Assembly (NCBI GenBank): GCA_947175645.1
Contig: CAMWNP010000013.1
Coordinates: 1 to 64,000, forward strand
DNA: 64,000 nt
Origin: an uncultured Porphyromonadaceae bacterium
GTDB taxonomy: Bacteria; Bacteroidota; Bacteroidia; Bacteroidales; Muribaculaceae
Direction of reading: 5' to 3'
Both the position numbers and the translations under genes were made by a program. Each line of letters begins with the position of its first letter. Position 1 is the stretch's first letter. Below are positions 8,708 through 24,760 of this stretch, in pieces. The notes beneath the pieces were generated by a model. It did not search any database. It was not told the DNA's origin and was given only the letters and a program-made list of their open reading frames with translations.

Positions 8708-9548
8708 GTTTCTCCGCATGATAACTTGATCGCACCAACGGAGCGCTCTCAATGTGACGGAAGCCCTTCTCCTTACCAATTTGCGCATACTCCGCAAAAA
8801 CTTCAGGAGTGATATAATCCTGTACAGGATAATGATTTTCTGTTGGCTGAAGATACTGTCCGATTGTCATCACCTGACACCCCACGGAAAGCAGATCGTC
8901 CATGGTCTGCAGAATTTCGTCACGCGTCTCGCCCAAACCGAGCATTATTCCGGATTTAGAGCGGATTCCTGACGCAGCAATATGCCGGATTACTTCGAGC
9001 GAAGTGTCATAAGTGGCAACAGAACGGACCATTGGAGTAAGCCGTCGGACGGTTTCAAGATTATGGGAAATCACATCAGGCTTCTCGGCTATAACCCTAT
9101 CCACAAGGTCAAGACGTCCGCGAAAATCCGGTATGAGGACTTCCATGGTTACTCCCGGACAATTCAAGTGTAGTTCAGAAATCATACGGGCCCAGTGTGA
9201 TGCACCTCCGTCAGTCAGGTCATCGCGGTCAACCGAAGTTATCACAACATGTCTGAGCCCCAGTTCTTTAACTGATTTGACAATATCGTCAATCTCGGCA
9301 TTATCAAGTGACGCAGGCCGGCCGGTCTTAACATTGCAGAATCGGCAATTTCGGGTACAGACATCGCCTCCTATCATAAACGTGGCTGTTCCCCGTCCCC
9401 AACACTCACCTTTATTAGGACACATTCCGCTTGAACAGATAGTGTGGAGACAATGCTCATTAAGCAGACCAACAACATGGGCAGCCTTGACCCCACGCGG
9501 CAATTTTATCTTCAGCCAGTCAGGCTTACGACGGAAATCTGCGCCCAT
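8697..9548 (-). CDS. lipA: Lipoyl synthase LipA
   Basis: 283 residues. Radical SAM enzyme that inserts two sulfurs into the octanoyl chain. It has the auxiliary cluster motif CSSGMCPNKGEC (CX4CX5C), the radical SAM motif CTRNCRFC (CX3CX2C), and the C-terminal RSSYHA that ligates the auxiliary cluster. It starts on the base next to the stop of the Crp/Fnr gene and overlaps lipB, so regulator and both lipoylation enzymes appear to be one operon. Confidence 0.97.
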   Translation of the reverse strand: MGADFRRKPDWLKIKLPRGVKAAHVVGLLNEHCLHTICSSGMCPNKGECWGRGTATFMIGGDVCTRNCRFCNVKTGRPASLDNAEIDDIVKSVKELGLRHVVITSVDRDDLTDGGASHWARMISELHLNCPGVTMEVLIPDFRGRLDLVDRVIAEKPDVISHNLETVRRLTPMVRSVATYDTSLEVIRHIAASGIRSKSGIMLGLGETRDEILQTMDDLLSVGCQVMTIGQYLQPTENHYPVQDYITPEVFAEYAQIGKEKGFRHIESAPLVRSSYHAEKHVL

Positions 9549-10247
9549 TTATCCAAATTTTGAAATCTTGCGTAACATAGGTTCGTTCAGAATCTTTATT
9601 CTTCGACCATCTACGGTGATGATTTTCTCTGTCACGAAACCCGAGAGCGTACGTATGGCGTTCGAGGTGGTCATATTCGACAAGTTGGCAAGATCTTCAC
9701 GAGCCATAAATATGTTCAGAGTGGAGTTATCATCCTCATACCCGTAATTGTCACGAAGCAGAATCAATGCTTCAGCCAAGCGTCCGCGAATATGTTTTTG
9801 AGTAAGGTTAATGATCTTAGTGTCAGAACTACCGAGATTCCTGGAGAGTTCGTGGATGAAGAACCATGCCAACTGATTGTTGTTTGTAATCATTTCAGAT
9901 ACGAGCGACATGGGGAGACAACCGAGTGTTGAAGGTTCAAATGCGGCAGCGGAAGAAACATAAGGCTCATCAGCGAAATAGGCACGGTAACCGAAATACT
10001 GCACCGGACGAATCAGGCGTAGAATCTGAGGACGACCGCCCAGCCCATCCTTATAGAGTTTAACCTTACCTTTGAGAAGACACCACAGATGTTCCGGAGC
10101 CTCCTTTTCGGCATAGATTATCTGGTTTTTCTTGAAATTCTGCAATGTAAATGCATCAACAATCCTGCGTTTCTCATCAGAATCAAGAATCTTCCAGATT
10201 CCTGCCATATCATCACTGATTACCCTCTCTATTACACTCTTAATCAT
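9549..10247 (-). CDS. Crp/Fnr-family transcription regulator
   Basis: 232 residues. A cyclic-nucleotide-binding-type beta-roll covers about 25-120 (AEKEAPEHLWCLLKGKVKLY) and a Crp-type winged helix about 150-220 (MAREDLANLSNMTTSNAIRT). No N-terminal cysteine cluster of the Fnr iron-sulfur type is present, so it is more Crp-like in sensing; the ligand is unknown. The stop touches the lipA start with no gap, which suggests coupling to lipoate synthesis. A TAACTTTG on the minus strand at 10340-10347 is its likely -7 element. Confidence 0.9.
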   Translation of the reverse strand: MIKSVIERVISDDMAGIWKILDSDEKRRIVDAFTLQNFKKNQIIYAEKEAPEHLWCLLKGKVKLYKDGLGGRPQILRLIRPVQYFGYRAYFADEPYVSSAAAFEPSTLGCLPMSLVSEMITNNNQLAWFFIHELSRNLGSSDTKIINLTQKHIRGRLAEALILLRDNYGYEDDNSTLNIFMAREDLANLSNMTTSNAIRTLSGFVTEKIITVDGRRIKILNEPMLRKISKFG

Positions 10248-10668
10248 CCTGTTCTAAACTATTAGGTGGAAGGTAAACAATTCAAATAAAACCGTGAGAA
10301 ATTGCTTAAAACATCCACGTATAATTATGTTTTACAACACAAAGTTATAAAAAATTTAATAGTATAAAAAATTTTTTGCGATTTTTGTGGATTAAACCTA
10401 TAAAATATAAAAGGGGGGCTTCTCACAAAGTCCCCTTTCAGTTTCCAATAGGTACAATTTCTAAGGTAAAAAAGATTGTTTTAGGTTTGCGATACAAAGT
10501 TCCTAAATAATTTTTGCTCTACCAAATATTTTTTTATGTTATGCAACATAATTTTATAATATCTTTTGGATTATTTTGGCCATCTTATCACACAACTCAT
10601 TATCAATCAATGACATACAAGACCAGCCAACCTCCTGTTTTTTACTTACAATTTGTAAGTAATCAATT
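10248..10668. other. 421-nt AT-rich gap with several inverted repeats, no gene
   Basis: Contains the Crp/Fnr promoter box (10340-10347), an AAAGGGG/CCCCTTT hairpin around 10410-10438, a TTATGTT/AACATAA inverted repeat near 10535-10553, a plus-strand TAGGTTTG (about 10484-10491), and a 21-nt palindrome at 10642-10662. No ORF or recognised RNA family is visible. A small RNA is possible but unsupported. Confidence 0.5.
10642..10662. repeat. 21-nt perfect palindrome beside lpxH stop
   Basis: TTACTTACAA and TTGTAAGTAA flank a single T. It begins 7 nt past the lpxH stop on the minus strand. There is no T-run after it in the lpxH direction, so it is not a classic intrinsic terminator; it could be a protein-binding site or a 3' stabilising hairpin. 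Confidence 0.5.
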
Positions 10669-11415
10669 TTATTTGTAGAATTGAAGGGTCAATGTTCCAT
10701 TTGAATAGCGTGCATAAGAGAAAAGGGATATCCAGTCGCCTAACACCAGCACCCTGGCCGATGCATTCTTAACATATTGATCCACAGCAATATGCCGGTG
10801 CCCGAATATAAAATAGTCAACTTTTTCCGTGCAGTTAACCTCATTGTACTCAACTGCGAACTTAACAAATATATCATCGGATGGATCAAATGGCTGTTCG
10901 GGTTCTCCGGTGGCACGGCTGTGACTTGACCATTTATGTGCGAAAGGCACAGTCCAGCGAGGATGTATCGCTGAAAAAAGCATCTGGCAGAATCTGTTCC
11001 TGAAGACACTTCTGATGATGCGGAATCCGGTCGGCAACTTACCCACAGCATCACCATGGGCCAAGTAGAAGCGCTGTTCGCCTATGGCTGTGACATAATC
11101 ACCGTCAATAACCTCAATCCCGATCTCATCACGGAGATAATCAAACAACCAGATATCATGATTGCCTGTCAGCCAGGTGATTCTGACTCCCGCATCGACC
11201 AGTTCCGAAAGCACCCCGAAAAACCTTATATGTCCCCTGGGTACCACAGTCCGATACTCATACCAGTAGTCAAGCACATCACCCAGCAGGAAAACCTGCG
11301 ATGCCGTATGCTTCAATGACCTCAGGAACTCCACAACCTTACGTTCATGCTTACGCCGGTCCGTGATATAGGAGGCTCCTAAGTGCAGGTCTGAAAGGAA
11401 ATAAGTATCTTTCAT
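10669..11415 (-). CDS. lpxH: UDP-2,3-diacylglucosamine pyrophosphatase LpxH
   Basis: 248 residues, a calcineurin-like metallophosphoesterase. Metal ligands stand in order: FLSDLHLG (N-terminus), LLGDVLDYW, TGNHDIW, AHGDAVG and FGHRHIA. It hydrolyses UDP-diacylglucosamine to lipid X in lipid A synthesis at the inner membrane. The next step, LpxB, is encoded at 26705-27829 of this window. It lies 19 bp after the SufT-like gene in a minus-strand series with engB. Confidence 0.9.
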   Translation of the reverse strand: MKDTYFLSDLHLGASYITDRRKHERKVVEFLRSLKHTASQVFLLGDVLDYWYEYRTVVPRGHIRFFGVLSELVDAGVRITWLTGNHDIWLFDYLRDEIGIEVIDGDYVTAIGEQRFYLAHGDAVGKLPTGFRIIRSVFRNRFCQMLFSAIHPRWTVPFAHKWSSHSRATGEPEQPFDPSDDIFVKFAVEYNEVNCTEKVDYFIFGHRHIAVDQYVKNASARVLVLGDWISLFSYARYSNGTLTLQFYK

Positions 11416-11434
11416 TCAGGAACGGGTTAATCTG

Positions 11435-11755
11435 TCAAAGAAATCCGAGTTCAAGTTTTGCTTCTTCACTCATCATATCTTTAGTCCATTCAGGCTCGAA
11501 TACAATATTAATAGTAACTGAGTTCAATTCTTTAATGGATTCAAGTTTGATACGCGCATCATCCACGATGAAGTCCGCCATGGGACAGTTAGGAGCAGTC
11601 ATGGTCATGTCAACCACAAGGTCGGCATTGTCGTTTATGTCAATCTTGTATACGAGTCCGAGGCTATAGATGTCAACAGGTATTTCCGGGTCGAACACCG
11701 TCTTAAGCATTTCAACAACCTTTTCCTCAAGTTTGAGTTTCTCTTCAGCAGTCAT
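11435..11755 (-). CDS. MIP18/DUF59 family iron-sulfur assembly protein (SufT-like)
   Basis: 106 residues matching the DUF59 fold: DPEIPVDIYSLGLVYKIDI (22-40) and TAPNCPMADFIVDD with the conserved cysteine, then a C-terminal EPEW. Members help mature Fe-S proteins. The start codon shares a base with the engB stop, indicating translational coupling. The link to LipA, which needs Fe-S clusters, is only by neighbourhood. Confidence 0.9.
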   Translation of the reverse strand: MTAEEKLKLEEKVVEMLKTVFDPEIPVDIYSLGLVYKIDINDNADLVVDMTMTAPNCPMADFIVDDARIKLESIKELNSVTINIVFEPEWTKDMMSEEAKLELGFL

Positions 11756-12357
11756 TATTCTACAGGGAGTTTATTGAGTGATTCAATGTAGTCAAGCAAT
11801 TCTATCCGTCCGCGCTTATCCTCGCTGGATGTCTTGAATATCGGAGGTAGTTCATCCCAGGATTCCAGAAGGAAATCACAATATACCTGAATGGACTTCT
11901 TCGCCGCTCCGGAAGTAAGTTTATCAAGTTTAGTGAACACAATGGCAAACGGAACGGAGTTCTCACCCAGCCAGTTCATAAACTCGATATCAATCTTCTG
12001 TGGCTTGTGACGAACGTCAATAAGCAGAAAAAGATTGGTCATCTGCGGACGTTCAAGAATATATGATCTGATTATACGGTCAATTTCAACACGAGCCTCT
12101 TTACCGCGACGTGCATATCCATACCCCGGCAAATCCACTATATACCATTCATCATTAATCAGGAAGTGATTGATAAGCAGGGTTTTACCGGGAGTAGATG
12201 AGGTCTTGGCAAGGTCTTTCTTACCGGTTAGCATATTAATCAGCGAGGATTTGCCCACGTTGCTTCGCCCTATGAAGGCATATTCATGCTTTTTATCATC
12301 AGGGCATTTCTTTACGTCAGTATTGCTGACCACGAATCGTGCTGCATTGACTATCAT
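11755..12357 (-). CDS. engB: Ribosome-biogenesis GTPase EngB/YsxC/YihA
   Basis: 200 residues. GTPase motifs in order: G1 [12 protein letters not shown] (31-42), G2 region [12 protein letters not shown]3 DLPGYGYA, G4 TKLDK, and G5-like TSS. The length and the [10 protein letters not shown] block are those of the EngB family, which acts in large-subunit assembly. It is followed by the DUF59 gene with a 1-bp overlap, and preceded by aguB 31 bp upstream. Confidence 0.96.
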
Positions 12358-12388
12358 AGATTCAGAGTTTTAGTTACCTAACTGATGC

Positions 12389-13279
12389 TCAGTCCTTTAA
12401 AAAACGTTTTGTAAGTCCGGAATATGCGTCGATACGGCGATCGCGCAGAAATGGCCACCATCTTCTGACCTGTTCCGAACGGTTCATATCTATGTCTATA
12501 ACAACCGTCTCCTCAGAACTGTTTGACGCTTTATAAAGGATTTCACCCTGAGGACCTGCAACAAAGGAGTTACCCCAGAACAGGATGCCGTTGGTCATTC
12601 CTGAAGGATCAGGTTCATGCCCCACTCTGTTGACCGAAACCACAGGCAGCCCGTTAGCCACTGCATGACCGCGCTGCACGGTTTCCCATGCCTGCAACTG
12701 GCGTTGTTTCTCACTTTCAGTGTCACTGCTCTCCCACCCTATTGCAGTTGGATAAATCAGCAATTCGGCTCCTCGGAGAGCCATCAGCCTGGCTGCTTCC
12801 GGGAACCATTGGTCCCAGCAAACAAGAACCCCCAGGGTTCCCACTGACGTTTTAACAGGCTCGAACCCTATATCACCGGGAGTGAAATAGAACTTCTCGT
12901 AATAGGCCGGATCATCAGGAATATGCATTTTCCGGTATACTCCTGCCACCGATCCGTCGTTCTCATATACTACGGCAGTATTATGATAAAGCCCGGGGGC
13001 ACGGTGCTCGAAAACGGATGTGACCAACACCACACCAAGTTCGGCTGCCAGACTGCTGTAAATTTGATTTGATTCCGAGTCAAGGGGTAAAGCGAGATTA
13101 CAGTTGTCGACAGACTCAACCTGACAGAAATAGAGGGAGTCATGCAACTCCTGATTGACTATCAGTTGGGCTCCGTCTGCCGCAAGTTGACGCATTTTTT
13201 CAATCAGACGACGACGGTTGTCCGCAATGTCAGCGGTGTTGTGCTGTTGAATAAATCCAACCTTTAAAGTTCTTTCCAT
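12389..13279 (-). CDS. aguB: N-carbamoylputrescine amidase (carbon-nitrogen hydrolase)
   Basis: Converts N-carbamoylputrescine to putrescine, CO2 and ammonia. 296 residues from the ATG at 13279 (MERTLKVGFIQQH). The frame is open further upstream to 13405, but that part belongs to a dispersed repeat and is not family sequence. The nitrilase Glu-Lys-Cys triad is visible: E in VNQELHDSLYF, K in VYRKMHIPDDP, C in LVCWDQWFPEAARL. PDDPAYYEKFYFTPGD is typical of AguB. speA lies about 42 kb away in the same window; the intermediate enzyme aguA is not seen. Confidence 0.92.
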   Translation of the reverse strand: MERTLKVGFIQQHNTADIADNRRRLIEKMRQLAADGAQLIVNQELHDSLYFCQVESVDNCNLALPLDSESNQIYSSLAAELGVVLVTSVFEHRAPGLYHNTAVVYENDGSVAGVYRKMHIPDDPAYYEKFYFTPGDIGFEPVKTSVGTLGVLVCWDQWFPEAARLMALRGAELLIYPTAIGWESSDTESEKQRQLQAWETVQRGHAVANGLPVVSVNRVGHEPDPSGMTNGILFWGNSFVAGPQGEILYKASNSSEETVVIDIDMNRSEQVRRWWPFLRDRRIDAYSGLTKRFLKD

Positions 13280-13296
13280 AACAGAGATAATATGAC

Positions 13297-13454
13297 GGTG
13301 TGTCATAATAAGCCATCTGCGGCGTTGCTTTCGGTATTCGGCTTCGGTCACATACTTAGGTATGCTCCCATCAGCCTCATCCTCAGAGCCTTGCATCTGA
13401 CCCATTCTGACAAACCTTAAGAGGGTGTGTCAAAATTAAATTTCGACACACCCT
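13297..13454 (-). repeat. Dispersed hairpin-ended repeat, copy A
   Basis: In element orientation (minus strand) it starts with a hairpin, AGGGTGTGTC/GACACACCCT in element terms (13422-13454). About 120 bp of body follow, and it ends TTATGACACACC (13297-13308), so the ends are inverted repeats of GGTGTGTC. It matches copy B at 21306-21466 with about 20 mismatches over about 145 aligned bases. It fills the gap between nagB and aguB, with the hairpin placed as a terminator just after the nagB stop. The body is open in one frame, but substitutions between copies change many residues, so it is not a conserved gene. Confidence 0.85.
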
Positions 13455-13465
13455 TAGAAATTTGG

Positions 13466-14275
13466 TTAAAGTTGTGATTCAGGATCGAGGTTGTTTTTTT
13501 CGATATCCTTGAAATAGCGGTAGGTTGAAACCTTCAGTTCCATACATGCATTCTCGTCAGCGACAATGATAGCCTTGGGATGCATCTGCAGGGCGGAGAT
13601 AGTCCACATCTGAGAGATGCCACCTTCCACACCATGTTTCAAGGCACGCGCCTTGTTGTAGCCGTTCACAATGAGGAGGACGCTTTTGGCAGCCATTACT
13701 GTGCCAACGCCAACGGTGAGAGCGGTTTTGGGAACCAGGTCCACGTTATTCTCAAAAAAACGTGAGTTTGCGATGATGGTGTCCTGAGTGAGGGTTTTCA
13801 TGCGGGTTTTGGATGTAAGGGAAGATCCCGGTTCATTGAACGCAATGTGACCGTCAGGACCAACGCCACCCATGAAAAGATCTATGCCGCCGTAAGATTC
13901 TATCTTGGCTTCGTAACGCGCACATTCCTCTTCAGGATTTTCAGCATTACCGTTGAGAATGTTCACATTTTCAGGAAGTATATCAATCTGGTTGAAGAAA
14001 TTCGTCCACATGAAGGTGTGGTAACTCTGCTCATGGTCACGGGGTATACCGCAGTATTCATCCATATTGAAAGTTACTACATTGCGGAACGACACTTTAC
14101 CCTCCTTGTTCAGACGGATGAGTTCACGGTACATTCCTAAAGGGGAACTACCTGTGGGACAACCGAGCACGAAAGGATGTTCGGGAGTGGGATTTGCCTC
14201 ATTGATGCGGGCTGCAACATAGTGAGCCGCCCAGCGTGAAACATTTTCGTAGTCCGGTTCGATAATTAATCTCAT
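13466..14275 (-). CDS. nagB: Glucosamine-6-phosphate deaminase
   Basis: Converts glucosamine-6-phosphate to fructose-6-phosphate and ammonia. 269 residues from the ATG at 14275 ([12 protein letters not shown]), the family length; the longer frame to 14389 adds a non-family hydrophobic stretch that overlaps the promoter. Motifs: [22 protein letters not shown] with the catalytic Asp, [16 protein letters not shown], and [11 protein letters not shown]. Expected product length and residues are all present. Confidence 0.97.
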
Positions 14276-14323
14276 AGAAATTGTTTTTGGGGTTATTATG
14301 TAAGAAGATGTTAAATTTATTTG

Positions 14324-14354
14324 CAAAAATAATGAAAAAACGGTAAACAAGCAA
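14324..14354 (-). promoter_or_regulatory. Promoter of nagB
   Basis: Minus-strand TATTTTTG (14324-14331) with a TTG (14352-14354) about 20 nt upstream. It lies about 50 nt before the ATG at 14275. Confidence 0.5.
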
Positions 14355-14419
14355 GAAAAAAAAGAAAGACCTTGCCAAATGTAAGGCAAAGTCTTTGAAT
14401 GTTTATTATGGGAACTGCT

Positions 14420-14962
14420 TTATTTCTGCTTGCGCTCCGGTTTCACCTGACGGTCGCCGTCGCCCTTGCGTCGGTCATCTTTTTTGAACCCTTTGTGATC
14501 TTTGTGACCACGCTTGTCCATTTTGGCTGACTTATTGTGTCCGGCGGGAGAATTCACCACCATGTTTTCAAGGAATGAAACATACTGTTCAGGAGTAAGA
14601 ATTTCCTTTACCTGATTAAGGTAGTCACGCTTGGCCTGCTTACGCTGCTTTATGAGTTCCTCACGGCTTGGACGGTTCGCTTTGTCATCTTTGTTCACCT
14701 CTGATTTCTGCTTACGATCCATCTTGCAGTTTTGTTTCAGTGCGTCAAGTTTGGTCTGCTGCTCCTGAGTCAGTTGAATACCTTCAAAAGGATTGAATGC
14801 CGCACACTGCTGTTTGCTCTCACATTTTCTTTCTTTATCACCCTTGCAACATTTTTCAGTTTTCACTTTATCGCACTGCTTCTGATCCTGCTGTTGAGCA
14901 AAAGCGCTGAATCCGAAAAGTGTTACTAATGCCATTGATAAGGTTACGATTGATTTCTTCAT
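14420..14962 (-). CDS. Cys-rich periplasmic Spy/CpxP-like LTxxQ protein
   Basis: 180 residues from the ATG at 14962 (MKKSIVTLSMAL); the signal peptide ends near AFAQQ. Two LTxxQ motifs mark the Spy/CpxP-like repeat: LTQEQQTKLDALKQ and LTPEQYVSFLENM. The N-terminal mature part has five Cys in about 35 residues (QCDK, KCCKG, KCESK, QCAAF), and the tail is Lys/Arg/Asp-rich. Spy-type proteins are periplasmic chaperones or metal/stress sensors. The clustered cysteines suggest metal binding (inference). Confidence 0.75.
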   Translation of the reverse strand: MKKSIVTLSMALVTLFGFSAFAQQQDQKQCDKVKTEKCCKGDKERKCESKQQCAAFNPFEGIQLTQEQQTKLDALKQNCKMDRKQKSEVNKDDKANRPSREELIKQRKQAKRDYLNQVKEILTPEQYVSFLENMVVNSPAGHNKSAKMDKRGHKDHKGFKKDDRRKGDGDRQVKPERKQK

Positions 14963-15301
14963 AGTCAATTATTGTTTTAAAGTTTTTGAATAAATCCGTT
15001 TTCTAATATTGTTTGTATCTATGACACCTGAAAAAGTCAAAAGTTTAAACAGAGAACCTCTAATTAACTTAATTTAAATAATTATAATCATTCTCACTCC
15101 AGCGTAGTGGTTTAAAGTTTAGATAACGATTCATGAGATTGATGGCAATCAACAAACAGTAATTCCGGCGCGTCTGCCCCCACCACTTTCCTTACGATAG
15201 TCGTGCCAATTCACGAAACAAGACAGCATAAAAAAAAAGGTGTAATCAAAAAAATTTTGACACACCCTAAAATGTAATTCTATTATTTTCAGTCTATCAT
15301 A
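14963..15301. other. Gap between Spy-like gene and LRR pseudogene
   Basis: No gene supported. It holds the 15238-15268 hairpin and AT-rich sequence. An ORF across it reads on from the decayed LRR tail and shows no conserved family. Confidence 0.5.
15238..15268 (-). terminator. Hairpin related to the dispersed repeat, after the LRR pseudogene
   Basis: TTTTGACACACCCT (15255-15268) pairs imperfectly with AGGTGTAATCAAAA (15238-15251). On the minus strand an eight-T run follows, so it fits an intrinsic terminator. The arm AGGGTGTGTCAAAA is the same as in repeat copies A and B, but the repeat body is absent. Confidence 0.6.
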
Positions 15302-15783
15302 TTTTACAACAATTTTTTCACAAGATTTTCCCTGACGGATAATATACATTCCTGGCGCAAGATTTTCTGTAATATCACTTACCTTAATGCCATAAAATTA
15401 TATATTTCCTTGGGAAAGTTCGAATAATCCTGACTATCAGCTATCACATCTTCAACACCGGACTCAACAAAGAAGAACTCCTTCTACTGATCTGCCGCCC
15501 TATAGTCATCTAAACTATGCTCGGGCACTAACAATTTGCATTCCCACTTGTTGATATCATACAGTGCTTGAGATCCGCATGTTGGTGGTGTTGCAGCCAA
15601 TGATGTAAAAGAGGTGAGTGCAGTGCAATCCGAGAAAGCCTCTTTCCCTATTGATTTCACCTCCGTGCCTGACGTATAAGACCCAATCGAAGAGCAGCCT
15701 GCCAACGCGAATATTTCGATATTTTGTAAATTATCAGGTATAAAACTCATTAAACAATTACAATTCTTTGAAACAGTAGATAC
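15302..15783 (-). pseudogene. Decayed BspA-like leucine-rich-repeat surface protein with T9SS-type tail
   Basis: On the minus strand a remnant of LRR_5 repeats is readable: IPDNLQNIEIFALAGCSSI, then VKSIGKEAFSDCTALTSFTS, then LLVPEHSLDDYRAADQ. An in-frame TAG (15484-15486) replaces what is normally Trp before KEFFFVES. The frame goes on to about 15390, where a one-base shift is needed to reach VSDITENLAPGMYIIRQ and EKIVVK, a C-terminal motif of T9SS-exported LRR proteins. The left end also lacks a start and meets TGA at 15784-15786. There are thus several lesions in one reading. Confidence 0.8.
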
Positions 15784-16185
15784 TCAAAATGATGAATGAT
15801 TCCGTCGTCAACGGGGTTAAAATTATCTTTGCAGTCGTATTCAAACTATCATGATTCAACCTCGCTGGGATTTCTTCTTATTATCTATATTTGTAAGCAT
15901 GAGGAATTCAATTATCTTGCCCATCACTTGACGGCAATAGGAGCCTCCGGGGCTTCACGGGGGTGGAATGAGTTACTTATGAGCATACAGTAGATAATTT
16001 TTAAGATTTTATAGTGTTATTTGTATTATTTTGTGGATTCCGATTTCGGTATCTCAAAAATAATCCTTATCTTTGTAAATGGATAATTATGAATTGTCCG
16101 GACCTGCTGATAAAGCAGGAGTTATATTAATCCACAGGTTATTTATTGATTGCAAAATACAATACCAATCAGAATCAATTACTAT
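15784..16185. other. Gap between LRR pseudogene and fimbrillin operon
   Basis: Left part: degraded sequence with no recognisable protein. Right part: promoter and leader of the fimbrillin operon, including a CCTGC/GCAGG hairpin at 16103-16119. A 65-codon ORF here shows no family signature. Confidence 0.5.
16044..16075 (+). promoter_or_regulatory. Promoter of the fimbrillin operon
   Basis: TATCTTTG at 16068-16075 matches TAnnTTTG. The upstream box is imperfect (TTTC at 16044-16047, 20-nt spacer). The leader to the ATG at 16186 is about 105 nt. Confidence 0.5.
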
Positions 16186-17229
16186 ATGAAATATCATACA
16201 CTTCTATTAAAAATGCCCATAATTTGCTGTATGCTGTGTTTCTATGCATGCAGTTCCGACTCCGATTACGAGCAGGAGGCTGACAGGGGTATAGAAATGT
16301 CGTTTGACGTGCCATCCGAGTCACGTGCGATAACGACATCTATTGACGAATTTTCGGTTTATGGTGACATGAAATTACTCTCAGGCGTGCAAGATCCAAT
16401 CGTGATTTTCAATAAAACTACAGTTGTCAATCGTGATGGAGCCTGGTGTTATGACGGAACCCAATATTGGTTTCCGAAGCATGAGCATTCTTTTGTTGCA
16501 GTAAGTCCGTCATCAGCGCTTGAGTCAGAAGTTTCGCCACAATATTATGGTTCAGAACTTTCCTTCGCTTATACGTTCCCGACGTACTCAGACAAGGAAA
16601 TGCAGGAAACTCAAGACAAAAGTGATATTATTGATATTGTCGCAGCTACTCATCGGCGGTCATATAACGAAGATGATAAGGTTGATGTAATATCTTTAAG
16701 ATTCGGACACCTGTTGTCTATGATAAATTTCGCTCCCAAACTTGACGACAAAACCATAAGGGGCGATGATTACATACAGTTTCACAAATTAGAAATTTCA
16801 GGATTAAGAAAAAAGGCTAGGATCGCTGTCACTCCGGCTCCGTTAATGGAGAATCCGCGGACCGATGACCGCCTGATAGAATTTTCCGAGTATGAGGGCA
16901 ATGACAATCTGACTATTACCTTCAACAGTTCTAAAACTGTTTATAACGGTCAGCAAATCAACATCTTTGCCAATGACGACGCCATCGTAATGCTCCCCCA
17001 GTTCTTTGAGGCTTCATCAGAGGCAACTGTCAGATTCACATATTCATTTAAGGATGATCCCGAGAATCTGAGAGTGGGGACCCTCTCTCTAAGAGGTCAG
17101 GAGTGGAAGCCCGCAACCGCGTACACCTACAATTTTACAGTGGATAAAATAGGTCTGAATTTAGTAACAACTACCATCAAAAAATGGGATTCAGTGTATA
17201 TTTCCGATATTATTTGGACGGTTGAGTAA
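16186..17229 (+). CDS. Fimbrillin family lipoprotein (Mfa-like), first of three
   Basis: 347 residues from the ATG at 16186 (MKYHTLLLKM). Residues 1-22 form a lipoprotein signal with its Cys in CFYACSSDSD. The body has the Mfa-like 1 pattern: ESRAITTSIDEFSVYG early, and GAWCYDGTQYWFPKHEHSF, the W...Y.WP-type block followed by FVAVSPS. The C-terminus is AYTYNFTVDKIGLN then KKWDS. Such proteins are stalk, anchor or tip subunits of type V pili, exported as lipoproteins and trimmed by a protease before assembly. It is the first gene of a three-gene operon and lacks the lectin-like C-terminal domain of the other two, so it may be anchor or stalk. Confidence 0.8.
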   Translation: MKYHTLLLKMPIICCMLCFYACSSDSDYEQEADRGIEMSFDVPSESRAITTSIDEFSVYGDMKLLSGVQDPIVIFNKTTVVNRDGAWCYDGTQYWFPKHEHSFVAVSPSSALESEVSPQYYGSELSFAYTFPTYSDKEMQETQDKSDIIDIVAATHRRSYNEDDKVDVISLRFGHLLSMINFAPKLDDKTIRGDDYIQFHKLEISGLRKKARIAVTPAPLMENPRTDDRLIEFSEYEGNDNLTITFNSSKTVYNGQQINIFANDDAIVMLPQFFEASSEATVRFTYSFKDDPENLRVGTLSLRGQEWKPATAYTYNFTVDKIGLNLVTTTIKKWDSVYISDIIWTVE

Positions 17230-17279
17230 TCACGAACGAATATCCATTCGATAAAATGCGCAAATTAAAAGAATCGAAT

Positions 17280-19265
17280 ATGAAGAAATACAATAAATAT
17301 ATATTACGGACAATCAAAGTGCTGATGCTTTCAGTCTTTGTCGCGTCATGCTCGCAGGATGACGTTGAACAGAGCATGCCATTGCCTGACGGACAATATC
17401 CGCTGGATCTTACAGTTTCCGTCGAAGGAATGAAGAGCCGTGCCGGCGGTAAGGATAACTGGAAAGATGGTGATGAAATTGGAGTTCGGATAGGGTCTGA
17501 TAAGGAGATAGGACGTTATACCTTGAATCCTGACGGCAGTGTAAATATTGAAGAATCAGCTAATCTCCTTCATTGGAGGACAACCTCACCCGCCACCGTG
17601 CAGGCCTGGTTTCCGTTTGAACCGCAGACCGATGTTTCAATTGCTGACCAGTCTGAACTCTCAGATTTCTCCTCAATCGACTATCTGGCAGCCACCGCTG
17701 AAAATCAGAACTACAAGAATACGGTAGGATTGACTTTCAAGCACCAGATGGCTAAAGTAATATGTGTGCTCAGAACCTTAGATTCTAGTGTCATATCCGA
17801 CGAAGAACTGCACAATGCTACCGTTACCTTCAACGGCTATACCGTAGCCACATTTGCCGAGGGAGAACTCTCCGGTGATGTTTTCGGTAAAATTGTCCCC
17901 ATCAAAAACGACCGCACCCATGAGGCCCTCCTTGTGCCTGCAGATATGGCGGGCCAGGAACTGTTCCATATCGATTTCAATGTGGGTGGCTATGACAAAA
18001 GTTTCAGTTACATCCCGGGGGCCAATTGTGAAAACCTGCAGCCGGGCAAATCGTATACTTTCTACGTAACTTTGAGACGAGATAAGGTGGTTGTCAATGA
18101 AATCTCTGCCTCATGGGATGGCGAAGCAGAAGAAATATTCTCCGAGGCGATACCCTTGAACGTATATTTCTCTGATGATTTACCTGAAGGATTTTTTGAT
18201 GGCTATGCCGAATTTAGCGAGAGTTTTCAGGGTTGGGATGATGAAGACGAGTGTTATAAAGTAAAGGGCAACACCTTCACCATCAGCCTCACGCTTGATG
18301 AGGACGGAGGAAACTTTATGAAGGGTTTTACCGTGACAGAAGGTATAGCATCGGTCAACCGCGTCAGGATTGAGAACCGTCATGTGTTCATATTCAAGGT
18401 GAATACCGAGAGTGTGCGTCTTGAATATGGCGATTACATGCAGGTGGGAGATTTTCTATACACCAACGGGAAGTGGCGCCCTGACATATATAATAACACA
18501 AACGTCATTGGGGGCGGCGATGTAGAAGACCCCGAAGTAAGCGACAGCGATTTAGTAGATCTCAATAAGAACCCCAACTTCGGCTATGGCTACGATGACA
18601 ATGGTGAAATATGGGAATGTATCGGCGTCATTTTCAAGGTTGGCCCTGGCAATGGTGATTCGGTAGAGAATTATGGCGGACGTCTTAAAACTATCCACGG
18701 CTATGCAGTGGCCCTTCACGACGTTTCAGTCCCTGCCGAAATCGGCAATTGGGGAGGAGGTTTTGATTTTTTAGATGAAGAAATGAAGTTCGGAGTATAT
18801 GATAGTTATGTCTATGTTTACGATGGCTATACGAATACTCAGAACATGTTGCCAATCGCAATCGCAAATAAGACACTAAATGATAGACAAGGTGAGGAGG
18901 CTTATTGGGCATTTAACAGGTTGAATAAATATAATGAGACTGTGAAAGTGCCCGACTACTTCAGCACATGGTATATACCTTCCATCGGACAGCTCTCCGA
19001 CCTGTATAAATTCGTCGGGCGACGCGATCGTCTCGTCATGGCAGGCGGCGAGGAACTCATATTGAGTGACGTGGGTATTTTTCCTTCCAACTCGGTAAGA
19101 TTTGACTCATTCGGCGCAAAATACTGGTCATCGACTCAGGCATCAAGGGATGCTGTATGGGTTTTTAGATTTCAGACCGGACAAGCTGCACATTCAAACA
19201 AACTTGGGGTGTCTATAAGTAGCCGAAGCAGCCTAAGTCGTATGCGTGCGGTTTTGACATTCTAA
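17280..19265 (+). CDS. Fimbrillin lipoprotein with C-terminal Lcl/DUF1566-like domain
   Basis: 661 residues from the ATG at 17280 (MKKYNKYILRT); an upstream ATG at 17256 is possible. Signal with lipobox VASC-SQDD. The N-terminal half is Mfa-like: KSRAGGKDNWKDGDEIGVRI, ATVQAWFPFEP, and FKHQMAKVICVLR. An all-beta middle region follows. The last about 110 residues have WYIPSIGQLSDLYKF, AKYWSSTQAS and end in SRMRAVLTF, the pattern of Lcl/FimTip-like C-terminal domains. That points to a pilus tip adhesin (inference). 50 bp after the first fimbrillin gene and 12 bp before the third. Confidence 0.8.
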   Translation: MKKYNKYILRTIKVLMLSVFVASCSQDDVEQSMPLPDGQYPLDLTVSVEGMKSRAGGKDNWKDGDEIGVRIGSDKEIGRYTLNPDGSVNIEESANLLHWRTTSPATVQAWFPFEPQTDVSIADQSELSDFSSIDYLAATAENQNYKNTVGLTFKHQMAKVICVLRTLDSSVISDEELHNATVTFNGYTVATFAEGELSGDVFGKIVPIKNDRTHEALLVPADMAGQELFHIDFNVGGYDKSFSYIPGANCENLQPGKSYTFYVTLRRDKVVVNEISASWDGEAEEIFSEAIPLNVYFSDDLPEGFFDGYAEFSESFQGWDDEDECYKVKGNTFTISLTLDEDGGNFMKGFTVTEGIASVNRVRIENRHVFIFKVNTESVRLEYGDYMQVGDFLYTNGKWRPDIYNNTNVIGGGDVEDPEVSDSDLVDLNKNPNFGYGYDDNGEIWECIGVIFKVGPGNGDSVENYGGRLKTIHGYAVALHDVSVPAEIGNWGGGFDFLDEEMKFGVYDSYVYVYDGYTNTQNMLPIAIANKTLNDRQGEEAYWAFNRLNKYNETVKVPDYFSTWYIPSIGQLSDLYKFVGRRDRLVMAGGEELILSDVGIFPSNSVRFDSFGAKYWSSTQASRDAVWVFRFQTGQAAHSNKLGVSISSRSSLSRMRAVLTF

Positions 19266-19277
19266 AAAAATTTAAAT

Positions 19278-21005
19278 ATGAACAGACTGATTTTACCATA
19301 TATTTTTATCCTTTCCTGCATTCTATGTGCGTGTCAAGATATAGATGACATTCCCACACAGGCAGGTAAAGTCGATGCAGACATTATTTCACTCAACGTC
19401 ACTGTTGCCGACAATATTACCTCAGGCAATCCGGCCTCCCGTACTATAAATCACGGCAAGTCAACATTCTTTGAGCCGGGCGACTCGGTCGGTGTCATCG
19501 TTCTCGACAAAGACGGCAATTTTATCGTGAATAATGCCTTGTTTTTTTTAAATGACAATTACAAATGGACATTCCAGGGTGAAAATGTTCCCCTCTACGA
19601 CAGCGAGATGCAAACATACATCGTCTACTTCCCCTACCACGAGTCAGTAACTGCGAAAGAGTGCAAGAGTGCTGAGGAAATCTTGTCCTTGCCTGCCTTC
19701 AATCACCATGAGGACCAAACGTCTAAAGCCGCATACCGCAACTCCGACGTTATGGCATGGGAGTCGTCTGATGGCCCTTTTAAGGATATTAAAGCCGAAC
19801 TGCGGCATCTGCGCAACTGCGTATCGCTCGACATTACCGTCCAGTGGGAACTTCTCACCGGTGAGAAAATCACCTTTAAGAATCCCAACGAGGCTGCCAT
19901 TAGAGATAATGAAGGTAAACTCCTCAAGACTTATCAGGCAGAAGACGGAACCTTCCGATACATTCTTCCCGATGGATATGAGGGTGATATAGCCTACTTC
20001 TACAACTATCGTGAGTCGATGTTCAAAGGACTATTCAATGTTCAATCCTCTGAGACCGGCATACTCTATTCCAGATTCGAGACTGTAGATATGAATGTTT
20101 ACACCTTTGACAAGGTGATTGTCGGTGATTTTTATTGTAAGAATTCCGAAAATTACGGCTTTATTCTCCCTTACGAGGCTACCGAATATTTGGATGATGA
20201 TAACCACCGTTGTATAGGACTGGTGTTCTTCATCGGTCAAAATGAAAACGATGGAGTCGAATATGAGGGAAGTTATGACTACAGTGAGACAGGTATAGAA
20301 GATAGTAGTTGCCATGGTTATGTCTTGGCACTGACCGATGTTCAAAACGACCTTAACAACATGTTTGAGTGGGAGTTGGATAATAACTACGATCCGTATG
20401 AGGGAGAAGAGATACGAACGCGGATGGGTGCCAATGTATACTCCGGCGATTGGGGCGGATATCATAATACTCTTAAGATTCTGGATACTTGCAAGGATAA
20501 CGAGTGGTACAAGAATTTTTATCCGGCTGCATACGCTGCATACTATTACGGCAATCTTGCCACCGGGACAGTTGAAGTCACGTACGAAGAGAATGTTACG
20601 GTCAAAAAAACTATTCTATTCAATAGCCGTGACAATACGCCGAGCGACGGAGTACGGGATGAACTCAATCCCTACGAATGGCAGGAACCTCTGCAGGCTC
20701 CTGATAATACCTCCGGCTGGTACCTGCCGGGTAACGGCATGCTTCTCGAGATTCGGCAACATCAATTCCTTTTTGAGCAGCGCTATGAAGAGATAAAAAG
20801 GAAACTGGCTGACGAGGTTCCCTACAAGGAACACATAGGTTGGATAAAATATGTCCACAATTATCGCGGCGCTCCCTATTACTGGTCTTCCACTGAGAGT
20901 AATTATGAGGGACGAGCGCTATCACATGAATACTCCATCGAAAACAATACTTATCCTTCCCACAAATCAAAAGCATTCGCTGTGCGGGCAGTACTTTCCT
21001 ACTGA
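19278..21005 (+). CDS. Fimbrillin-like lipoprotein with C-terminal Lcl/DUF1566-like domain
   Basis: 575 residues. Lipoprotein signal with Cys in ILCACQDIDD. N-terminal Mfa-like block: ASRTINHGKSTFFEPGDSV, then MQTYIVYFPYHE. The C-terminal end has SGWYLPGNGMLLEIRQHQF, APYYWSSTESNY and finishes KAFAVRAVLSY, so it shares the tip-type domain of the preceding gene. The middle carries a Tyr/Asp/Gly-rich stretch near residue 360. It closes the operon. A long hairpin at 21026-21063 follows its stop, with no T-run. Confidence 0.78.
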   Translation: MNRLILPYIFILSCILCACQDIDDIPTQAGKVDADIISLNVTVADNITSGNPASRTINHGKSTFFEPGDSVGVIVLDKDGNFIVNNALFFLNDNYKWTFQGENVPLYDSEMQTYIVYFPYHESVTAKECKSAEEILSLPAFNHHEDQTSKAAYRNSDVMAWESSDGPFKDIKAELRHLRNCVSLDITVQWELLTGEKITFKNPNEAAIRDNEGKLLKTYQAEDGTFRYILPDGYEGDIAYFYNYRESMFKGLFNVQSSETGILYSRFETVDMNVYTFDKVIVGDFYCKNSENYGFILPYEATEYLDDDNHRCIGLVFFIGQNENDGVEYEGSYDYSETGIEDSSCHGYVLALTDVQNDLNNMFEWELDNNYDPYEGEEIRTRMGANVYSGDWGGYHNTLKILDTCKDNEWYKNFYPAAYAAYYYGNLATGTVEVTYEENVTVKKTILFNSRDNTPSDGVRDELNPYEWQEPLQAPDNTSGWYLPGNGMLLEIRQHQFLFEQRYEEIKRKLADEVPYKEHIGWIKYVHNYRGAPYYWSSTESNYEGRALSHEYSIENNTYPSHKSKAFAVRAVLSY

Positions 21006-21025
21006 TTCATGTAGTCTGTACCTCA

Positions 21026-21063
21026 TGTCAGTCAACGATAATGCACATTATCCGTGACTGACA
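21026..21063 (+). terminator. Long hairpin after the fimbrillin operon
   Basis: TGTCAGTCA-ACGATAATG pairs with CATTATCCGTGACTGACA across a 2-nt loop, with one mismatch. It starts 20 nt past the last fimbrillin stop. There is no T-run, so termination or mRNA protection are both possible. Confidence 0.5.
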
Positions 21064-21305
21064 TAATTGCGACGATTCTCAGTAATAAAGGGAGTTTCAA
21101 GCACGCAGTCGGTAACCAAAAATAATCCGGAAATGCAGTACCGATTGTATGTAAGTTGGCGAATCAGCATAATGCGCAGCACTCCTTCTCAGTTTGCTGA
21201 CGAAAAAATCCGCCTTTTTTTGGCGAAAATACCACGCCGGACAAAAACTTCATTTTCCCTTCGGTGAATTATGGCTAACCGTAGGGTAGATTAGGATACC
21301 ACATG

Positions 21306-21466
21306 AGGGTGTGTCAAAACAAAAATTTTGGCACACCCTCTTAAGGTGTGTTAGAATAGGTCAGATGTTAGGCGCTGAAGATGAGGACAATAGGAGCATA
21401 CTTAAGTATGTGACTGAGTCCGAATTCAGAAAGCAACGACACAGATGGCCTATTATGACACACCGC
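21306..21466 (+). repeat. Dispersed hairpin-ended repeat, copy B
   Basis: Starts AGGGTGTGTC, pairing with GCACACCCT (21306-21339), then CTTAAGG and a body of about 110 bp. The body has an internal perfect palindrome CATACTTAAGTATG; the copy ends TTATGACACACCG. It is inverted relative to copy A (13297-13454), with both hairpin ends facing the 7.9-kb interval between them. Target-site duplications are not evident. Confidence 0.85.
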
Positions 21467-21678
21467 CATGCTATCCGTCAAGTCTGACACCAACCATACA
21501 AAGTCGGGGTAGACCGATAAAGTGTATCCTTACAATTCCACCCTTGGCAAATTTACGGGAGGTAGGAAGAGTATGTAGAATAACTCTCCGGCTTAGGCGA
21601 GGAACATAACTTAAAGAACTAATTTTCCCGGAACCTCCGGTGGATCCTGTACTGCAAAAAGACGGTCCGGACGCCGAA

Positions 21679-22461
21679 TCACTCGGCATCATGGACAGTG
21701 AGGGAGGCGAGTTTGTGCTCTAGATCGGCTGAGGACAATCGGGTAATAATCTTGCCACGGTTGGCTATGGATATATTTCCGGTTTCTTCCGAGACTACCA
21801 CCGCTACCGCATCTGTGGCTTGAGAGATGCCGAGCGCTGAGCGGTGACGCAGACCCATGGAACGGGGAATGTTGGTGTCATGACTGACCGGGAGAATGCA
21901 TCCGGCTGCAACTATCTTGCCGTGGGCAATGATCATGGCACCGTCATGAAGTGGTGAGTTTTTGAAAAAAATATTCTCTATGAGTCGGGAATTTATGGTG
22001 GCGTTGATGAGATCGCCGGTCTTTTCATAGGATTCCAGCGGGACATTCCGCTCAATTACAATCAGCGCGCCGGTCTTTGATTTAGACATGTTCATGCACG
22101 CATATACGATCGGCATGATCCATTGATGCCGTTCCTCATGTGCGTCTGATTTCTTGTGGTGGAAAATATCTTTAATGAATTTCCAACGTTTCTGCGATCC
22201 CAGTTCCACAAGGAATCTCTTTAACTGATCCTGAAATATGATGACGAGAATAAGCAGACCTATGCTCATGAACTTATCAAGAATGGTTCCGAGCATTTTC
22301 ATCTCAAGAATTTCGGAAGTCACCACCCACACCACAATGAACGCCAGCACACCGAAGAAAATGTTAATGGTGCCTGACTCCTTCATAATGCGATAGAGGT
22401 AATACAGCATTATAGCAACCAGGATGATGTCGATGATGTCCTTTATTCCGAATGAGAGCAT
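21679..22461 (-). CDS. dacA: Diadenylate cyclase (CdaA/DacA type)
   Basis: 260 residues: three TM helices (about 8-75), then a DisA_N domain. The catalytic motifs are intact: HDGAMII (DGA) and GLRHRSALGIS (RHR). It makes cyclic di-AMP from two ATP at the inner membrane. The start is 3 bp after the folP stop, an arrangement common in Bacteroidota. No CdaR-like regulator gene is adjacent in this window. Confidence 0.95.
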   Translation of the reverse strand: MLSFGIKDIIDIILVAIMLYYLYRIMKESGTINIFFGVLAFIVVWVVTSEILEMKMLGTILDKFMSIGLLILVIIFQDQLKRFLVELGSQKRWKFIKDIFHHKKSDAHEERHQWIMPIVYACMNMSKSKTGALIVIERNVPLESYEKTGDLINATINSRLIENIFFKNSPLHDGAMIIAHGKIVAAGCILPVSHDTNIPRSMGLRHRSALGISQATDAVAVVVSEETGNISIANRGKIITRLSSADLEHKLASLTVHDAE

Positions 22462-22464
22462 TGT

Positions 22465-23310
22465 TCAGGATTTGAGGATGTTACAATAAAGATCAGCGGC
22501 CTGACGTGCCTCTTTTACGTCATGCACCCGGAGAATGTCGGCACCCCGGTCAAGTGCATAGGCATTTAGTGCTGTTGTGGCAGCCAATGCTTGGTCAGTG
22601 GCGATACCGAGCGTACGTGTAATCATTGACTTGCGCGACATTCCTACAAGCAGCGGCATACGCAATTCACGGAACACCCCAAGGTCACGCATAAGTGTGA
22701 AATTCTGTTCAGGAGTTTTGGCGAATCCGAAACCGGGGTCTATGATAACATCGTTGACACCCAAAAGTGCCAGTTGGTTAAGCCGGCATGCAAGGTCGTC
22801 AAGCACAGAGGCCGTCACTCCCCGGGGACCATAATCCGTGAACTGTTGCATGGTTTCGGGAGTGCCGCGAGTGTGCATCAATATGTATGGCACATTGAGG
22901 TCAGCAACCGTTTCAAACATTTCCTTGTCAAGCGAACCACCGGAAATGTCATTTATGATATTGACAGTGTGGTTACGGACAAGTTCACGGGCGACATCGG
23001 CACGGAAGGTGTCCACACTGAGCGGTACGTCAGGCGCTACGGAGCGCAGAGCCTCTATGGCCGGTTCAAGTCTTCGCAGTTCCTCAGCAGGTGACACGGA
23101 CTGTGAGCCGGGTCGGGTGGAACAGGCACCGATATCGATTATATCCACCCCATTCTCAAGCATATCGCGCACTACAGCAGTCACCTCGCCACGATTGCAA
23201 CAACGTGACCCGGAATAAAACGAATCCGGAGTAACATTCAGGATTCCCATTACCACTGGACGTGTGTAACAGACGAGCCTGCCGTTGATATTGAGCGAGA
23301 AAGGGGTCAT
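22465..23310 (-). CDS. folP: Dihydropteroate synthase
   Basis: 281 residues from the ATG at 23310 (MTPFSLNINGR); a longer frame to 23337 adds nine residues of no family value. Motifs: MGILNVTPDSFYSG, DIGACSTRPGSQ, NIINDISGG, MHTRGTPETMQ, IIDPGFGFAKT, and SRKSMI. It condenses p-aminobenzoate with hydroxymethyl-dihydropterin diphosphate in folate synthesis and is the sulfonamide target. folC for a later folate step is at 51746. Co-transcribed with dacA. Confidence 0.96.
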   Translation of the reverse strand: MTPFSLNINGRLVCYTRPVVMGILNVTPDSFYSGSRCCNRGEVTAVVRDMLENGVDIIDIGACSTRPGSQSVSPAEELRRLEPAIEALRSVAPDVPLSVDTFRADVARELVRNHTVNIINDISGGSLDKEMFETVADLNVPYILMHTRGTPETMQQFTDYGPRGVTASVLDDLACRLNQLALLGVNDVIIDPGFGFAKTPEQNFTLMRDLGVFRELRMPLLVGMSRKSMITRTLGIATDQALAATTALNAYALDRGADILRVHDVKEARQAADLYCNILKS

Positions 23311-23370
23311 AATAAAAATAAGAGGAGGAGAGCACACGGGCGCAACTCCTCCTATAAAAATCAGTTATTA

Positions 23371-23937
23371 TCAGGCTTTGATACGTTCAACGTAAGAACC
23401 GTCACGAGTGTCGACTTTCACCTTGTCGCCGATGTTGCAGAACAGGGGAACACGAATTTCAGCACCTGTTTCCAGAGTAGCGGGCTTGAGGGTGTTGGTT
23501 GCGGTATCGCCTTTGATTCCGGGTTCGGTATAGGTGATTTCAAGGACAACGTTAACGGGCATCTCGCAAGTGAGGATGGTGTCAGAAGCAGCGTGAACCA
23601 TTGCTTCACAGATGTCACCTTCCTTGAGGAACTGTACACCTTCGATACCTTCGCCGGGGATAGCCACCTGTTCGAATGTTTCGGTATGCATGAAGTTGTA
23701 GCCCATATCATCTTTGTAAAGATACTGGTAGGGACGGCGTTCGATGCGTACTTCATCGACTTTCACACCAGAGTTCCATGTCTTATCAAGGATACGTCCG
23801 GTTTTAACATTTTTGAGTTTGGTGCGAACGAAAGCCGGACCTTTACCGGGTTTAACGTGAAGGAATTCCACGATGAAATAGTACTGGCCGTCGATGTCAA
23901 GGCACATGCCGTTCTTAAAATCTGCTGTAGTTGCCAT
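23371..23937 (-). CDS. efp: Elongation factor P
   Basis: 188 residues with the three beta-barrel domains of EF-P. The tip loop reads [10 protein letters not shown], with the modifiable Lys at about 33. Other blocks are [18 protein letters not shown], and the C-terminal [17 protein letters not shown]. It relieves ribosome stalling at polyproline. Which modification pathway is used cannot be told from this window. It has an exact housekeeping promoter. Confidence 0.97.
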
Positions 23938-24006
23938 AAATGGTTTATAAGATGTTTATTTTATTGATATTCTGATTGTTATAGTGTACCCTTCCGAATA
24001 ACTTTG

Positions 24007-24037
24007 CAAAGTTACTAATTTTGGATGAATCTGCAAA
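24007..24037 (-). promoter_or_regulatory. Promoter of efp
   Basis: Minus-strand TTTG (24034-24037), exact 19-nt spacer, TAACTTTG (24007-24014); about 70 nt before the efp ATG. Confidence 0.75.
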
Positions 24038-24079
24038 GTGTTGTTCCGGTATTTTAAGACCCGGTGCTTGATCCGGCGA

Positions 24080-24760
24080 TTATTTTATACGGAACATATA
24101 GCCTAAAGTGACGGCTATGCTTACGTTGCGTGATGCGCTGAAGGTATCTTTCTTCGTTGATGGGAAGATATTGCCGAGTCCGTAATAGAAACGAGCCTCA
24201 ATCATAACGGAGTGACGGCGACGGATGATTCCTTCACATCCCAGTCCGGCTGTTATTCCGTAGTCAAATTTATTCTTTACAGGCATCGCCAACTGTTCGG
24301 TCATGCGGAATGTAGTCGGAAAAGAAGGATTGGAGGTTGGATCCTCATAGTTGAAATTGGAGGAAATACTGCTCCCGATCATATAACTTATCTGCGGGCC
24401 AAGGTTGATGAATCCCTTGAAATTGCGTCCGCCGAAGAAAATATGTGTCATCACAGGCAGGTCCACGTAGTTGAGCGTGCGTGAATAATTCAAAGGTGAT
24501 TCCTCGAATTTCTCAGCCCATCCTCTTTGTGAGAAGTTCAATTCCGCTATCAGTCCCACATGACGTTCCTCGGCATATCTTATAGCCACGCCGGCCGTGA
24601 TTCCTTGCGTGAATTTTTGTTTCACCGAGGGGGCGAATGACATTTCGGACATGGTTATACCCGCATGTCCCCCCACATGCACATGTGACTCATAATGTTT
24701 CTGTGCATGAGTGGCAAAAATCCAGGGAGCAAGTATCAGGAATAACAGGAATTTCTTCAT
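24080..24760 (-). CDS. Outer-membrane beta-barrel protein, PorT-like superfamily
   Basis: 226 residues with a signal peptide (cut near THAQ) and alternating amphipathic strands: HVGGHAGITMSEMSFAP, LIAELNFSQRGWAEKF, YVDLPVMTHIFFGG, FINLGPQISYMIGS, FDYGITAGLGCEG, MIEARFYYGLGNIF, and the final VTLGYMFRIK with an aromatic end region. This is the eight-stranded OMP_b-brl type fold. The start overlaps the LysM-protein stop by 4 bp (ATGA), so the two are probably functionally linked at the envelope. Function not known. Confidence 0.8.
   Translation of the reverse strand: MKKFLLFLILAPWIFATHAQKHYESHVHVGGHAGITMSEMSFAPSVKQKFTQGITAGVAIRYAEERHVGLIAELNFSQRGWAEKFEESPLNYSRTLNYVDLPVMTHIFFGGRNFKGFINLGPQISYMIGSSISSNFNYEDPTSNPSFPTTFRMTEQLAMPVKNKFDYGITAGLGCEGIIRRRHSVMIEARFYYGLGNIFPSTKKDTFSASRNVSIAVTLGYMFRIK

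Follow-up and report, generated by a model that had tools for sequence, protein, structure and literature searches.

Results

Two inverted, hairpin-ended repeats in the DNA of an uncultured Porphyromonadaceae bacterium (GTDB Muribaculaceae) belong to one family of repeats dispersed through its genome, and we hold with moderate confidence that they are members of a non-coding interspersed family resembling miniature inverted-repeat transposable elements (MITEs), which is moved in trans and tolerated at transcription terminators. Both lie in the 64,000-nucleotide stretch that we analyzed (assembly GCA_947175645.1, contig CAMWNP010000013.1, positions 1 to 64,000; hereafter the window). Copy A is on the minus strand (13294..13455), with its hairpin end 10 bp past the nagB stop codon, and copy B is on the plus strand (21305..21467), 299 bp past the stop codon of the fimbrillin-operon gene that precedes it; these limits were read off the sequence. 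A repeat search recovered them, where the original prediction had placed them, as an inverted pair of 152 nt with 84% complementarity and a spacing of 7886 nt. They are the only full copies that a covariance model found in the window (B 191.7 bits, A 184.7 bits, both being among the 47 copies used to build the model).

Structure of the element

Each copy has the end hairpin (AGGGTGTGTC ... GACACACCCT) and, at the opposite end, the inverted GACACACC that the original prediction described; the body it placed between them is also present, but is itself a long imperfect hairpin, as fold z-scores indicate, and this had been overlooked. On the plus strand of the element the order is hairpin 1 (GAGGGTGTGTC...GACACACCCTC), a short perfect-type hairpin made of the end motif, then a few bases (TTAAGG), then hairpin 2 of ~120 nt. 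Hairpin 2 closes with GG...GTCAGAATA / TATTATGACACACC, and therefore the right end is the left-end motif inverted. In copy A, hairpin 1 (13421..13455, minus strand) was delimited from sequence and pair counts, and hairpin 2 (13297..13416, minus strand), with GACACACC as its far end, from sequence and model alignment; in copy B the corresponding features are 21305..21340 (plus strand, sequence and pair counts) and 21345..21464 (plus strand, sequence and a fold z of -6.8). The element thus carries terminal inverted repeats, imperfect here (GAGGGTGTGTC / GACACACCGYC) and perfect over 12 bases in most copies of genomes G736 and G584.

The fold of hairpin 2 is strongly supported. Its plus strand gave fold z-scores of -6.6, -6.8, -6.6 and -4.1 in four copies relative to shuffled sequences, and the single reverse strand examined gave -1.3. 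When the structure of a single copy serves as the reference, 93.7% of cells in the 47-copy alignment are paired and 23 of 56 pairs show two-sided change, the 71 two-sided-change cells comparing with a shuffled mean of 19 (0/500 shuffles); slid controls favor that reference structure. Because G-U combinations far outnumber A-C in hairpin 2, both in these copies (204 vs 45) and in a wider set of 42 sequences described below (130 vs 20), the structured strand is the plus strand, as RNA or as single-stranded DNA. The bases between the stems are near-invariant and often tandem GA. Three such sets face each other (G70 A71/G155 A156, G83 A84/G140 A141 and G100 A101/G123 A124, each in at least 44 of the 47 rows) and may form sheared tandem G-A pairs.

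A protein-coding body was considered and rejected: a frame in copy A enters the nitrilase gene, but copies differ in length by single bases and copy B contains stops. The nitrilase frame itself (window 12389-13405, minus strand) reaches into copy A; homology with G004, a genome of the same genus, begins only at residue 41, which makes the ATG at 13279 the probable start codon.

Copy number and dispersal

BLAST of copy B against the 139 contigs of the source genome returned 41 places at E <1e-22, B and A counted, and the covariance model, for which 47 full-length copies were used (36 of them from the source genome, 11 from relatives), returned 60 places of at least 52 bits in the 3.17-Mb genome by our own count of the list, some of them truncated. 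At E 0.1 that search lists 144 rows, many being opposite-strand echoes of the short hairpin. The flanks of the copies are non-homologous, and solo short hairpins and deletion derivatives occur too, as do decayed, truncated and tandem copies. The element is therefore short, non-coding, multi-copy and dispersed in unrelated flanks, as MITEs are, and its occurrence in relatives removes the possibility, raised in the original prediction, that no other copies would be found in related genomes.

Some derivatives are unusual in form. One of 115 bp (L084 1381-1495; contig C3, 116380-116495) has two right-type ends without hairpin 1 and is possibly an older form. Two contig-terminal copies (L310 1-120 on contig C120, and the end of L076 on contig C17) are both interrupted at the apical loop by one and the same other sequence; besides its broken copy, C120 carries the beginning of an IS4-like reading frame, upstream of which the sequence does not resemble the element ends. 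The element may be a recurring cause of contig breaks, because several matches sit at contig ends.

The pairing of A with B is coincidental. The two are 83.2% identical across the aligned element, less than the identity of A (up to 94.4%) and of B (up to 95.0%) to other copies, and they fall in different subfamilies. In G004, nitrilase, nagB, the Spy-like gene (62%) and dacA lie within one 3.9-kb stretch in which neither repeat is present and in which the three fimbrillin-operon genes and the leucine-rich repeat (LRR) fragment find no match. Because G004 keeps nagB and the Spy-like gene together without the fimbrillin and LRR genes, this comparison places the added block of the window at about 15-21 kb, with A outside it and nagB and the Spy-like gene between. 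The repeats had been predicted to flank the accessory island, with possible inversion of the interval between them, and neither proposal is supported: each repeat is closer to other copies, and nagB and the Spy-like gene lie outside the added block. That A and B face each other across the interval is what favors the idea of a repeat pair which bounds, and inverts or mobilizes, the fimbrillin island, yet about 58 other places carry the element, and the subfamily difference and the G004 comparison contradict such a pair as the origin of the arrangement; we regard the idea as wholly improbable.

Breadth across the Bacteroidales

Matches at E 0.001 occur in 203 of the 398 genomes of the bacterial family, which we take to be Muribaculaceae, many of them weak or confined to hairpin 1; 29 of 398 reach E 1e-18 (own count). 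Across the order 32 of 393 genomes reach E 1e-6, and 30 of those lie outside the bacterial family. Copy numbers from these surveys are lower bounds, because no more than 7 candidates were scored in any genome. We assembled hairpin 2 from 41 genomes as 42 hand-chosen sequences (one per genome, two from the source genome), realigned them using MAFFT and made a new fold prediction on the same alignment used for counting: 95.6% of cells are paired, two-sided change occurs in 33 of 34 pairs, and there are 302 two-sided-change cells vs 80 when shuffled (0/300). Internal words are kept across lineages (GGGAG...TGACCGA and similar) and the outer ends vary by lineage, being GGTGTGTC here and GGTTCGTC, GTTTTGTTA or GACTTTGCA elsewhere.

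No Rfam family reached its gathering threshold in window 9000-26000 or in 11 further loci, the sub-threshold overlaps being rivX on copy A (18.3 bits, threshold 100) and BcKCsr2 on L180 (19.8 bits, threshold 40). Copy B had no match in plasmids or phages, one exact core pattern searched in viral contigs gave zero matches, and the element is unnamed in the literature within our search, which did not reach preprints and most subscription journals. In one genome (G235) hairpin 2 copies form same-orientation arrays (L178 and L220), and in another (G265, L172 1501-1670) a copy starts, by eye, a few bases past an apparent tRNA 3′ end and not behind a protein gene. Elsewhere in the window, 10408-10606 (minus strand) has a sub-threshold match to the Bacteroides small RNA family BTnc060 (65.5 bits vs a gathering threshold of 228.9).

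Position behind genes

The gene context of the 36 full copies in the source genome, assigned by a rough gene caller (ATG starts, minimum 80 codons) that missed or misplaced some neighbors, is convergent in 22, co-directional sense in 8, co-directional antisense in 1 and divergent in 2, with no neighbor found for 3. Where a co-oriented upstream gene is present, 27 of 31 full copies start 10-50 bp past its stop (median 27), as do 15 of 19 copies in genome G074 (median 33); placement is looser in the genomes that show 5-bp target duplications (below), with 4 of 8 within 10-50 bp. Convergent sites alone cannot reveal orientation. At such sites the nearer end is that of hairpin 1 for 14 of 20 copies here and for 8 of 10 in G074. 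At co-directional sites sense outnumbers antisense by 8 to 1 here and by 7 to 4 in G074, and a wider mixed set of 72 places, many without hairpin 1, has 15 sense to 17 antisense.

Copy A is absent from G004, and all seven nagB relatives from the same genus are followed by another strong hairpin. At one insertion common to G004, hairpin 2 is largely kept and hairpin 1 has been rewritten with its pairing retained. Judged from sequence, hairpin 1 probably acts as a 3′-end hairpin.

Evidence for mobility

From G074 we recovered at least 25 copies whose identity to the reference copy is 98.3-100% and whose flanks are unrelated, a pattern that points to recent spread. In three genomes of another family, exact 5-bp duplications flank 9 of 11 copies (all 7 in G736, 1 of 3 in G584 and the single copy in G671), and the ends there are near-perfect inverted repeats. 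The ends in G736 and G584, GAGACTGTTGCA...TGCAACAGTCTC, equal those printed for ISPg4 (IS5 family) in PMC4596501 in 12/12 and 11/12 bases; from such ends one might guess that these two genomes are Porphyromonas. Because of the 5-bp duplications and the ISPg4-matching ends, transposition in trans by a DDE enzyme is well supported in that lineage; for the source genome we infer it. The MITE-like mobility suggested in the original prediction accordingly gains from the dispersed family, the inverted-repeat ends, the near-identical G074 copies and the duplications in another lineage, whereas the target duplications it proposed to look for appear only in the latter.

Discussion

Our preferred explanation is that the element, having no gene of its own, would be moved in trans by DDE transposases recognizing its ends, the mobilizing enzyme being of IS5 type where 5-bp duplications are seen. 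Insertions would survive at, or in place of, terminators, with hairpin 1 substituting as the 3′-end hairpin, and hairpin 2, be it RNA or single-stranded DNA, would be maintained in its folded plus-strand form by some role.

Several observations weigh against this explanation. Target duplications are absent from the source-genome-based set of 47 copies, and there is no direct duplication at the 25 recent G074 copies. The G074 flanks instead tend to be short inverted complements (total run 76 vs 47.6 when shuffled, 0/10000), with p of 0/5000 at 8 nt, 0.0012 at 12 nt and 0.023 at 16 nt; the signal fades past ~16 nt, p being 0.12 at 20 and at 30 nt. In the 47-copy set inverted complementarity of the flanks extends over two bases only (0.638 vs 0.497, p 0.0005). 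A search of 20 small contigs of the source genome brought up no transposase with matching ends, such as the original prediction had proposed to seek. Copy B, at its distance from the stop, is a positional exception; a simple terminator scan called neither copy; and hairpin 1 is followed here by CTTAAGG and not by a T run, a clear one occurring only in the G074 type. The structure tests, moreover, rest on alignments whose sequences are related to one another, a relatedness that shuffling does not preserve. We also considered that insertion might split the stem of a native terminator, which is unsupported in the 47-copy set (p 0.45-0.82); in G074 there is only the short flank complementarity.

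Might hairpin 2 be a functional host RNA or 3′ untranslated region element, acting in stability, processing or termination, whose dispersal was retained mainly for its benefit and is not parasitic? The fixed position and orientation behind genes, the covarying stems with near-invariant internal bases and the rewriting of hairpin 1 with its pairing kept at the G004-shared site all fit such a role, but the near-identical recent bursts, the decayed, truncated and tandem copies and the 5-bp duplications resemble a mobile element. Furthermore, comparing the flanks of the 36 own copies with 14 other loci gave one clear G004-shared site, and close genus members such as G002, G005, G007 and G008 have no match at E 0.001. 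We therefore think this explanation unlikely, if deserving of serious attention. Fixed orientation behind genes can also be read in another way, as can the RNA-like fold with its wobble pairs and the lack of target duplication here and in G074: group IIC introns choose sites downstream of terminators, and a non-autonomous retroelement could have its RNA copied back into DNA at such sites. Against such a retroelement stand the inverted-repeat ends and, in another lineage, the 5-bp duplications, and we consider it highly improbable.

The same duplications argue against an element of REP/REPIN type that depends on a RAYT (Y1 tyrosine) transposase for its movement, an explanation for which hairpin repeats, strand asymmetry, the absence of target duplication here and the presence of one Y1 gene in this genome could be cited. 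That single Y1/RAYT-like gene (L089 1426-1851, minus strand, genome G000, contig C12) has its own hairpin repeats nearby, different by eye from the element, which has no match in the locus; the Y1 transposase is thus not flanked by the repeat it would be expected to move. In addition, 10 of the 29 genomes matching at E <=1e-18 are not among the genomes with a Y1 match. RAYT mobilization is unlikely, and we give the REP/REPIN explanation as a whole little credence. Sequence like the L089 hairpin repeats adjoins hairpin 1 in L079 and L081 (by eye).

How does the element compare with known repeats? It shares with REP/REPIN systems short palindromic repeats scattered between genes and differs in its much longer hairpin, its order-wide core and the lack of a consistent Y1 gene. 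ERIC-type repeats are long imperfect palindromes, MITE-like and 100-200 bp in length, that fold as one long hairpin; by description, the present element adds a second terminal hairpin, a fixed place behind stops and stems that covary across the order. Integron attC sites, too, are imperfect hairpins that directly follow a reading frame, whereas by description the sites here are scattered and single, mostly between convergent genes (22/36); no integron cassette array turned up, and no search was aimed at integrons. Porphyromonas gingivalis has the MITEs BrickBuilt, MITEPgRS/MITE464, MITE239 and MITE700, which are non-coding, number 10-20 copies and share their ends with full IS5-family elements (PMC4596501, in the part describing them). 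The f87 elements here bear ISPg4/MITEPgRS-type ends, but the P. gingivalis MITEs as described there have tandem repeats or other bodies; no resemblance of the covarying long hairpin to them came to light, although no search was aimed at one, and one-orientation placement behind stop codons is not among the traits that part of the source describes (PMC4596501).

The mode of spread is thus of a known kind, and what is new is the order-wide covarying core, the exchangeable ends and the place behind genes. More tentatively, and as a possibility that we rate below an even chance, the family may be an order-wide mobile structured nucleic acid in which the folded core, RNA or single-stranded DNA whose stems are set apart by conserved tandem G-A motifs, persists across Bacteroidales, the outer ends are swapped to suit the transposase available, and the whole is repeatedly installed as or beside transcript 3′ ends.

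The bodies of MITEs are mostly regarded as filler. That this body keeps one fold across the order through paired changes points to selection on a single strand, and the element repeatedly occupies the site at which transcripts end. If the proposal is true, the core would be more than filler and would itself have a function as a module. The family would then offer a natural system for asking whether mobile elements provide terminators or 3′-end RNAs, and why a folded core outlasts its ends.

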